NCBI GenBank assembly: GCA_947504115.1
Contig: CANNGH010000002.1
Location: forward strand, 124,001 to 188,000
Source: an uncultured Sedimentitalea sp.
Lineage (GTDB): Bacteria > Pseudomonadota > Alphaproteobacteria > Rhodobacterales > Rhodobacteraceae
Length of the DNA: 64,000 nucleotides
Reading direction: 5' to 3'
Shown here: positions 42,984 through 45,961 of the stretch, piece by piece
How positions within the stretch are numbered: position 1 is the first letter of the stretch
Layout: every line of letters begins with the position of its first letter
Made by a program: the position numbers and the translations under genes
Notes under the pieces: generated by a model
Databases searched by the model: none
What the model saw: only the letters and a program-made list of their open reading frames with translations
What the model was told of the DNA's origin: nothing

Positions 42984-44354
42984 TCAGAGAACCCGCAGAC
43001 GCGGCCGCAGGATCTGGCGCGAGGGCGCGATGATCAACTCATGCAGCGCCCAGACCAGCGCATCGACCCGGTCGGGCGATCCCGCGCCTTCATAGCCGCG
43101 CGCGGTCATCAGGCACATCTGTTCTTCCAGCAGGTCCATGCCCGCGACGTGGCGCACCCGCCCCTGTTCATACAGCGCGGCCACAGGCTCGGCCCGCGCC
43201 GCCTTGCCGCGCGTGGCATGCACCGCCTTGAACGGCACCAGCGGGTCCACCTGCCGGATCACCTCTTCGACCAGTTGTCCGCCCTGATTGACCTCGGCCA
43301 CCAGCCGCTCGGCGCCGAATCGCTCCATCGCGGCGATCGCCGCCCTTGCCCAGCCGACCGGGCCGACCCCCTGCACCGTGCAATCGGCCAGCACATAGGC
43401 GCGCCAATCCTGCGGCGGTCCCTGCGTGCAGGCCCCGACCACGACAATCCCGCATTCATCTGCCGTCTTGCCCGAACTCACCGCCGGGTCCAGCGCGACC
43501 ACCACGCGGTCCAGCGCCGGCACCGATGCGATCCGTGCCGCCTCAAACATGGCACCGCTCCACAGCGCGCCCTCGGCATCGGCCAACAGCACGCCGTCCA
43601 GTTCCTGTCGCCCCAGCCGCGTGCCGGCATAGCGCGCCCGCACCTCTTGCAGAAAGCTCGCCGCCAGATTGGCACGGTTCGCCTCGGTCGGCGCATGGGT
43701 CACCACGGTCGAAGATGCGGCCAGCAACCGCTTCAGCACGCCGACATTGCGCGGTGTCGTCGTCACGCAAACACGCGGATCATCGCCCAATCGCAGCGTG
43801 AATTGCAGCATGTCCCATGTTTCCTCGGCCTTCTTCCACTTGGCCAGTTCATCGACCCAGGCCGCGTCGAATTGCGGCCCGCGCAGCGCGTCGGCGTCAT
43901 GCGCCGAAAACGCCTGCGCCGTGGCACCGTTGGGCCAGACCAGCTTGCGCTCGCCGGCCTTCCAGACCGGTCGGCGATCCGGCGGCGAACATTCCAGTAT
44001 CCCGCTCTCGCCAAACACCATCACGTCGCGCACCTGATCATAAGTCTCGCCCACCAGCGCCACGCGCCGCGCGCGCCCCGTGTCCATCGGCGCGCCGCCC
44101 TCGACCTGTGCGCGCACCCATTCGGCCCCGGCGCGGGTCTTGCCCGCACCGCGCCCGCCCATGATGACCCAGGCCCGCCAATCGCCCTCGGGGGGCAGTT
44201 GATGCGGCAGCGCCCAGAACTCGAAAAGAAAAGGGAGGGCAAAAAGCCCTCCCTCCCCGATGTCATCCAGAAACGTCTCGCGGATCGCAGCAGGCGCGCA
44301 AGCGAACCAATCTGCACCCGACTTCAAGTCGAGCCTGCACAAGGTCGAGCGCAT
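42984..44354 (-). CDS. GTA gp2-like large terminase (start uncertain, overlaps gp1)
   Basis: LPFLFEFWALPHQLPPEGDWRAWVIMGGRGAGKTRAGAEWVR Walker A; VVALDPAVSSGKTADECGIVVVG nuclease motif. In-frame ATGs at 44399 and 44354, both inside gp1. Confidence 0.92.
   Translation of the reverse strand: MRSTLCRLDLKSGADWFACAPAAIRETFLDDIGEGGLFALPFLFEFWALPHQLPPEGDWRAWVIMGGRGAGKTRAGAEWVRAQVEGGAPMDTGRARRVALVGETYDQVRDVMVFGESGILECSPPDRRPVWKAGERKLVWPNGATAQAFSAHDADALRGPQFDAAWVDELAKWKKAEETWDMLQFTLRLGDDPRVCVTTTPRNVGVLKRLLAASSTVVTHAPTEANRANLAASFLQEVRARYAGTRLGRQELDGVLLADAEGALWSGAMFEAARIASVPALDRVVVALDPAVSSGKTADECGIVVVGACTQGPPQDWRAYVLADCTVQGVGPVGWARAAIAAMERFGAERLVAEVNQGGQLVEEVIRQVDPLVPFKAVHATRGKAARAEPVAALYEQGRVRHVAGMDLLEEQMCLMTARGYEGAGSPDRVDALVWALHELIIAPSRQILRPRLRVL
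44233..44253 (-). terminator. Terminator-like hairpin GGGAGGGC-TTTTT-GCCCTCCC followed by TTTTCTTTTC, inside the 5' part of gp2
   Basis: Perfect 8-bp stem, 5-nt loop, T-rich tract immediately downstream on the minus strand. Confidence 0.55.
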
Positions 44355-44607
44355 AGCCCCCTTGCACGATTCCGGCCTGTCTTTGTTGTTGTTCGACAAG
44401 GCTTGCCTCCACCTTCTGACAGGTCCGCAGCAACGTTTCCAGCGCTGCGACCTGTTTGGTCCCAGTTACAAGTTCCGCATCCTCCCCGGCCTGTATCTGC
44501 CTGCTCAGGTCTGATGCCTGTCTGCGCAGGTCGCGAACCGAATCTTCCAGCGAAGCCAGCAACTCCGCTGTCCGTTGAATCCGCTCTTCCGGGGTAATCA
44601 AAGTCAT
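44263..44607 (-). CDS. GTA gp1-like small terminase
   Basis: 114-aa coiled-coil protein at the RcGTA gp1 position: MTLITPEERIQRTAELLASLEDSVRDLRRQASDLSRQIQAGEDAELVTGTKQVAALETLLRTCQKVEASL. Confidence 0.85.
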   Translation of the reverse strand: MTLITPEERIQRTAELLASLEDSVRDLRRQASDLSRQIQAGEDAELVTGTKQVAALETLLRTCQKVEASLVEQQQRQAGIVQGGYALDLVQARLEVGCRLVRLRACCDPRDVSG

Positions 44608-44654
44608 GTTTGCCCATCGACCTCATGCGAGAGTGATCTCCGCACGAGAGAAAT

Positions 44655-44692
44655 GAAAAAGCGACCGGCGGGATCACTCCCGCGGCCGCTTG
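44655..44692 (-). terminator. Intrinsic terminator-like hairpin in the gp1 leader
   Basis: Minus strand AAGCGGCCGCGGGA-GTGA-TCCCGCCGGTCGCTTTTTC: 14-bp stem (one GU, one bulge), GUGA loop, U-run. Confidence 0.7.
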
Positions 44693-44709
44693 CCCACTTC
44701 TTCTAGCAT
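44674..44709 (-). CDS. Candidate 11-codon leader peptide MLEEVGKRPRE upstream of GTA gp1
   Basis: ATG lies 7 nt after a TATAGG -10 box (apparently leaderless); TGA stop lies in the loop of the terminator hairpin. Confidence 0.35.
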   Translation of the reverse strand: MLEEVGKRPRE

Positions 44710-44716
44710 GACACAA

Positions 44717-44745
44717 CCTATACGCGAATTCGGCCGGTATGTCAA
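44717..44745 (-). promoter_or_regulatory. Sigma70-type promoter TTGACA-N17-TATAGG
   Basis: -35 at 44740-44745, 17-bp spacer, -10 at 44717-44722 (minus strand). Confidence 0.7.
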
Positions 44746-44806: not shown

Positions 44807-45961
44807 CTACTGCCCCGGTCGGTTCGCTTCGATGTCGCGCCACTTGGCGACATTACGGTTATGCTCTTCCAGCGTCTCGGCAAAGGCATGCCCCCCCGAG
44901 CCATCGGCCACGAAGAACACGAACTCCGTCCGCGCCGGCGCCACCGCCGCCTCAAGGCTCGCAAGCCCCGGATTGGCGATCGGCGTCGGTGGCAGCCCTT
45001 CGATCACATAAGTGTTCCATGGCGTCGCCTGGCGCAACTCGCTCTGCCGCAATCCGCGTCCCAGTACGCCCTTGCCCTTGGTCACGCCATAGATCACCGT
45101 CGGATCGGTCTGCAAACGCATGCCCCGTTGCAGCCGGTTCACGAACACGCTGGCGACCTGCCCGCGCTCATCCGGAACGCCGGTCTCCTTTTCGATGATC
45201 GAGGCCAGAATCAGCATTTCCTCGGGACTGTCCAGCGGAATGCCCTCTTCTCGACTCTCCCAGGCGGCGGCGATTCGCAGATCCTGACGGTTTTGCATCT
45301 GCGCCACCAGATCGGCCCGCAACGTCCCCGGCACCACTTCATAGCTGTCCGGCGCCAGACGGCCTTCGGCCGGCACGTCACCGACCTCGCCCTCCAGCAC
45401 GTCGATCGCCTTCAGCGCCTCGACCACCTGCCAGTTGGTCACCCCCTCGGCCAGCGCGATGCGATAGCGCGTATCCACCTCATCCCGCTTTGCCACATAA
45501 GCCTCGGGAGCTTCGTCGACCAGCGGATCGAACTCGGCCAGTTCCACGAATTCGTTCGTCGCCGGATCCAGTTCGCGCACTCGCGCGAACGTGTGGTTCA
45601 CCCCCACCCGATAAACGATCTCGGTTCCGCAGGTGCTGGCTCCGCCACGGGTGATCTGATCGACGATCTGCTCCATCGACGCGCCGGGCTGCAACAGAAA
45701 GCTGCCCGCTTTCAGCTTGCCTGCCTTGTCGGTGTAATCCGCCCCGATCCGAAAGATCGTCGGATGCCGCACCGCGCCCTGATCCGCGAGATCGCGACTG
45801 ACCTTGATGATGTTCGACCCGCGCTCAACCCGCAGGCAGATCGCCTCGCCCAGCGGCCCTTCTGCCGTATATTGCGACTTGCCCCACAGGATCACGCCGC
45901 CGACAAGAAACAACCCCACGATCAGGAAGGTCAGCATGTTCGAGGCAAGGCTGCGCCACAT
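44807..45961 (-). CDS. mltG: endolytic transglycosylase MltG
   Basis: LILASIIEKETGVPDERGQVASVFVNRLQRGMRLQTDPTVIYG; TPWNTYVIEGLPPTPIANPGLASLEAAV. Confidence 0.95.
   Translation of the reverse strand: MWRSLASNMLTFLIVGLFLVGGVILWGKSQYTAEGPLGEAICLRVERGSNIIKVSRDLADQGAVRHPTIFRIGADYTDKAGKLKAGSFLLQPGASMEQIVDQITRGGASTCGTEIVYRVGVNHTFARVRELDPATNEFVELAEFDPLVDEAPEAYVAKRDEVDTRYRIALAEGVTNWQVVEALKAIDVLEGEVGDVPAEGRLAPDSYEVVPGTLRADLVAQMQNRQDLRIAAAWESREEGIPLDSPEEMLILASIIEKETGVPDERGQVASVFVNRLQRGMRLQTDPTVIYGVTKGKGVLGRGLRQSELRQATPWNTYVIEGLPPTPIANPGLASLEAAVAPARTEFVFFVADGSGGHAFAETLEEHNRNVAKWRDIEANRPGQ

Follow-up and report, generated by a model that had tools for sequence, protein, structure and literature searches.

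How the structural genes of a gene transfer agent (GTA) are transcribed from a promoter that is followed, ahead of the first gene, by an apparent intrinsic terminator is the question raised by the locus described here. RcGTA of R. capsulatus is the archetypal gene transfer agent, and there is no settled account of how its structural genes are activated by GafA. The window, which is the whole stretch of 64,000 nucleotides that was analysed, carries such a locus on its minus strand, and all features described below are on that strand. Its portal is a close relative of Rcc01684, the GTA portal of R. capsulatus, and this kinship, together with the order of gp1, large terminase and portal, identifies the locus as a GTA structural cluster. 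The first gene, gp1, occupies the small terminase position (44263-44607, start at 44607), with the large terminase and then the portal next. Upstream, and outside the element considered here, lies mltG (YceG; 44807-45961), with its 3′-end about 100 nt upstream.

The promoter comprises a −35 element TTGACA (44740-44745), a 17-nt spacer (44723-44739) and a −10 element TATAGG (44717-44722), just where an earlier note on this DNA had placed them. That note called the promoter near-consensus, which is true of the −35 element but not of the −10 element, where the last two positions are poor; because TATAGG lacks the final T, a consensus scanner run on the window listed the terminator and missed the promoter. 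The spacer contains the CGnnCG core of a GCGnaCGGTC motif (column conservation of 1.2-1.7 bits), and the window matches the motif at its C, G, C and G positions but not at its T position. From the promoter spacing and the RNA-seq start in R. capsulatus, transcription is predicted to begin at about 44710/44709, and the transcript would open with a near-invariant initial transcribed sequence, CATGCTAGAAGAAGTGGGC (44692-44710). The terminator hairpin H1 follows (44659-44691; stem arms 44691-44678 and 44673-44659), with the GUGA loop and U-run that had been claimed for it; its 14-pair stem carries one bulged C, and the U-run consists of five U (44656-44660). An outer helix, H0 (44649-44701), pairs 44701-44693 with 44657-44649, encloses both H1 and the U-run, and can form only in readthrough RNA. 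The 3′-arm of a second hairpin, H2 (44622-44648), runs into the gp1 Shine-Dalgarno sequence GAGG (44624-44621). A 61-nt stretch of this region folds at −32.8 kcal/mol (z = −5.6), and none of 200 shuffled sequences was as stable. With promoter, terminator and gp1 in this order, which is conserved between genera, GTA transcription from the promoter must pass the terminator, as the earlier note had argued.

Using gp1 as the query, 32 loci were collected, and the stretches just 5′ of gp1 were strikingly similar among them. A covariance model built from 27 aligned leaders (R1) matches 191 of 298 Rhodobacteraceae genomes in a sample of nearly one per genus, and this recurrence of the whole element argues that it is real beyond chance. 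In an order-level sample of 121 genomes, R1 matches 86, with Rhodobacteraceae accounting for all of the matches listed, and across 289 Alphaproteobacteria genomes it scores strongly in two only, both of them Rhodobacteraceae; by eye, the best outsider of this class-wide search (L262) is an unrelated terminator. Among 78 named loci, picked by similarity to the R. capsulatus portal and so not an even sample, 77 match at E < 1e-4 and the remaining one is marginal, and R. capsulatus, R. viridis, Paracoccus, Thioclava and Gemmobacter are included. The window genome holds a single strong copy (118.8 bits), the next best matches being its own antisense strand and weak terminator-like sequences, as is expected if the leader has one dedicated user. 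A search of Rfam returned no known family (best mir-128, 24.9 bits against a gathering score of 49), and, judged against the open-access literature and Rfam, the leader is deeply conserved and apparently undescribed. The phage records searched gave no meaningful DNA match to it. The exact leader pattern does occur in 27 IMG/VR “viral” contigs (L230-L256); some of these could be GTA clusters classified as viral, or else phages that share the late promoter.

Not every locus carries the full element. An R1 match is absent from about 27 of 103 gp1-bearing genomes (hand count), and some of the 25 diverged loci inspected have the promoter and start motif but no U-run terminator, while a few keep both. 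The terminator is thus widespread, but it is neither universal nor indispensable everywhere. Three of the diverged loci (L022, L279, L295) retain the −35 element and a GCTGGA-type or similar start motif with no terminator by a simple test; the start motif may have a function that is independent of the terminator.

Across 99 genera, the −35 element reads TTGAC almost without exception and the spacer keeps GCGnaCGGTC, while the −10 element is loose (TATAGG, TATAAG, TATACC, TAGAAA and others). The first transcribed bases, CA[T/A]GCT[A/G]GAAGA..TGGGC, are nearly fixed. Within them, the fixed start bases CA.GCT.G fall in no helix and could serve as a contact for GafA or polymerase, as a pause element or as the seed of a small RNA. 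All 97 leaders measured have H1 and a U-run of 3-7 T, with a median hairpin energy of −23 kcal/mol and a U-run that begins a median of 48 nt downstream of the predicted start. Further upstream, many relatives (L003, L005, L012, L014, L015, L018, L025) have an element like ACCGTACGGTTAG about 30-45 bp before the −35 element, not obvious in the window, which is a candidate site for the N-terminal domain of GafA or for another activator.

Support for the helices was assessed on an alignment built by MAFFT without structure (A1), in which H0, H1 and H2 are all supported and changes on both sides occur at 17 of 27 pairs. On each of five covariation measures, the observed value lies above all 500 shuffles. 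Shifting the partners in a slide control cuts the paired cells from 86% to under 50%, a comparison that favours the structure in that it was derived from the consensus and folds of the same sequences. When 3′-arms are exchanged between species, H1 (z of −12 to −15) and H0 (z of −5 to −6) become weaker, and H2 less so (z = −3.3). At one H0 pair, the change from A-U to C-G shows an association between the two sides (Fisher p = 2e-6, with some rows misplaced by the automatic reading of that position). Single-pair tests on a tree of TerL all point in the same direction but are underpowered, with too few changes for significance, and relatedness therefore inflates the covariation figures. The covariation of H0 indicates that the readthrough RNA is under selection. 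The earlier note had pointed to an alignment of relatives as the place to look for a conserved mini-ORF and a covarying stem; the stem is conserved between genera and covaries, and the mini-ORF is not conserved.

One regulator that binds at this promoter in R. capsulatus is GafA. The R. capsulatus strain DSM 1710 (L150) carries the leader, with the −35 element from 2005, the −10 element from 2028, the A of ATGCTAGG at 2040 and the g1 ATG at 2134. A probe bound by GafA covers 76-125 bp upstream of R. capsulatus g1 and includes the −10 element and the RNA-seq start (PMC6363796), and the C-terminal domain of GafA binds a fragment holding the −35 element, the −10 element and the start (PMC9638019). 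If g1 begins at the same codon and the strains are colinear, the published probe maps to L150 2009-2058, i.e. the tail of the −35 element, the spacer, the −10 element, the start and the initial transcribed sequence, with binding known at the level of the probe rather than of single bases; the hairpin begins at 2059. GafA also interacts with the omega subunit and has been explained as a polymerase recruiter (PMC9638019). In Caulobacter, the GafA C-terminus has a homolog in GafZ, which binds a palindrome within the −35/−10 spacer and acts as an antiterminator, allowing polymerase through terGTA and E. coli rrnB T1, and the authors raised the possibility of an unrecognised antitermination activity in GafA (PMC11150451). 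The conserved spacer motif lies where the GafZ element does and, by this analogy, is a candidate for the site at which the C-terminal domain of GafA binds.

The window genome encodes a GafA-type protein outside the window (375 aa, with an N-terminal HTH-like match and DUF6456), and its gene shares a contig with the GTA leader, at a distance of about 75 kb (C2 92422-92832, L148). A DUF6456 protein was counted by hand in 187 of 191 leader-bearing genomes and in 85 of 107 genomes with no detected leader, a co-occurrence that is confounded by incomplete genomes and by the joint dependence of both on having a GTA. The stretch upstream of gafA contains no GCGnnCG[GC]T motif and the gafA promoter no strong match to the spacer motif, and a PDB search with GafA returned no match.

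Taken together, we regard a Q-like antitermination leader for GafA as the best explanation of these features, and as a probable one. RNA polymerase would start near 44710 on the promoter of the GTA structural cluster, and without GafA most transcription would stop about 50 nt on, where H1 and its U-run would bring about the release of a short leader RNA. Once GafA is made, its GafZ-like, DUF6456-containing C-terminal part would bind the spacer of the promoter, the initial transcribed sequence or both. The bound GafA would load onto the early elongation complex, and the polymerase, now termination-resistant, would run through H1 and later stops and transcribe gp1 and the rest of the cluster. 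H0 and H2 would fold in the readthrough RNA, shaping the GTA message at its 5′-end. In most sampled Rhodobacteraceae genera, then, a predicted early stop lies about 50 bases past the GTA promoter, and switch-on probably needs a protein that carries polymerase through, most likely GafA. The earlier note saw in the blocked promoter a way to keep a GTA off in most cells and on in a few; the ON/OFF switch in those few cells may instead sit upstream, in the control of gafA.

The closest precedent is found at the late promoters of lambdoid phages (PR′/tR′), where Q makes polymerase pass an early terminator (PMC6606751). As in the Q system, there is a sigma70-type structural-gene promoter, a conserved spacer element (contact with GafA there being a candidate), a distinctive initial transcribed sequence and a terminator soon after. 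Unlike in the Q system, the presumed regulator is a DUF6456 protein, GafA, and the leader carries the conserved H0 and H2. The sigma-dependent, −10-like pause element that Q needs is only resembled here, by TAGAAG at +5 to +10, in which roughly one in three of the 99 genera has G as the second base; this ill-defined element, the loci without a terminator and the 85 genomes with DUF6456 but no detected leader count against an antitermination leader. GTA control in Caulobacter crescentus by GafY, GafZ, IHF and terGTA shares a homologous regulator, a similar GCG.nCG spacer half, a terminator to pass and one dedicated promoter, but C. crescentus has a degenerate −35 element (AATCAT), a long 5′ UTR and, after the first gene, a terminator that consists of three 150-bp repeats (PMC11150451), whereas here the −35 element is consensus-like, a hairpin terminator stands about 50 nt past the start and before the first gene, and GafY and GafZ are fused as GafA.

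A bolder form of the same reading, which we put forward tentatively and think rather doubtful, makes the leader a new type of antitermination receptor. GafA would recognise both the spacer and the invariant initial transcribed sequence, and it might also read H0/H1 in the nascent RNA. A domesticated phage regulator unrelated to Q would thus control a whole virus-like cluster by processive antitermination, and the terminated leader would accumulate as a GTA-linked small RNA in non-producing cells.

The most serious rival holds that GafA acts at initiation only, as an activator or a sigma-like recruiter via omega, with H1 terminating partially to hold down leaky transcription and with no need of a dedicated antiterminator. 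It fits the published omega interaction and promoter binding, the absence of the terminator from some diverged loci, and the poor −10 element, with which basal initiation may be low. Yet H1 and its U-run, present and stable in every leader measured, would block activated transcription too unless relieved, and the GafA homolog GafZ is itself an antiterminator; we consider an initiation-only role unlikely. The R. capsulatus RcGTA promoter has the same leader in DSM 1710, and the start and the GafA-bound region coincide with it, but GafA is treated as an initiation factor in those papers (PMC6363796; PMC9638019); term searches of both gave no mention of a terminator. The conserved terminator about 50 nt past the start, in R. 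capsulatus too, offers a concrete substrate for the antitermination by GafA that the Caulobacter authors could only suggest, and promoter fusions with and without these 50 nt may have measured different things.

The terminated product of about 50 nt could also function in trans as a small RNA whose conserved 5′-end is its seed, either on its own or besides the role as a leader. Such an RNA would have its own promoter, a near-invariant 5′-end and an intrinsic terminator, and would supply the other explanation that the helix-free CA.GCT.G bases call for. The family also offers a precedent in UpsM, reportedly a small RNA from the leader upstream of the R. sphaeroides dcw cluster; likened by description rather than by sequence, both are leaders before a large gene cluster from which a small RNA is possible, but the clusters differ. 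Against a trans-acting role, a genome search for close complements of the 16-nt 5′ segment found no convincing antisense target beyond the locus itself, and matches with 3 mismatches were fewer than in the control. H0, moreover, pairs the same bases in the readthrough RNA, which places the long transcript under selection too, and the 5′ motif is kept without the terminator at some loci. We judge a trans-acting function improbable, and a short sRNA as a by-product of the leader possible.

That H1 is simply the terminator of mltG and happens to follow the GTA promoter, the alternative offered in the earlier note, draws on the nearness of the mltG end and on the lack of a second U-run terminator between mltG and the promoter in the window. 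In R. capsulatus, however, a hairpin and U-run (AAACCCCGGCTGGGCCCGGGGTTT-TTGCTTT) stand after mltG and before the GTA promoter, and a terminator-like hairpin lies between mltG and the promoter at 36 of 86 loci (by a permissive pattern, and in some cases within long gaps). Furthermore, mltG is missing from the examined stretch at 23 of 109 loci, most of which still score for the leader. Given the separate mltG hairpins in relatives, termination of mltG is rejected as the main function, and this explanation as a whole is very improbable. Last, a ribosome-controlled attenuator, in which translation of the leaderless mini-ORF MLEEVGKRPRE (44674-44709) disrupts the terminator, can point to an ATG at the predicted start (44709) and an in-frame TGA in the loop (44676-44674), both literally present in the window, but is scarcely credible when the start position is ATG in 59 and AAG in 35 of 99 genera with at least 7 changes of state on the TerL tree, an in-frame stop at codon 11 is found in 13 of the 59 ATG-bearing leaders, the R. 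capsulatus leader has the ATG but no stop in its loop, and a segment-swap scan for a competing antiterminator helix gives H0, H1 and H2 only, with a few weaker signals not clearly separable from relatedness. The mini-ORF is rejected as a leader peptide, its start codon and stop not being conserved, and is a chance ORF on sequence kept for other reasons.

A second terminator-like hairpin, AGGGAGGGC-TTTTT-GCCCTCCCT followed by TTTCTTTTC, lies in the window at 44254-44223, 9 nt past the gp1 stop and inside the large-terminase frame. Among 82 relatives, roughly 15 have a stem that beats synonymous shuffles (p < 0.005), and a matching variant, AGGGAGAGC..GCTCTCCCT, occurs; the hairpin is absent in R. 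capsulatus. Its position recalls that of the Caulobacter terGTA just after the first gene.
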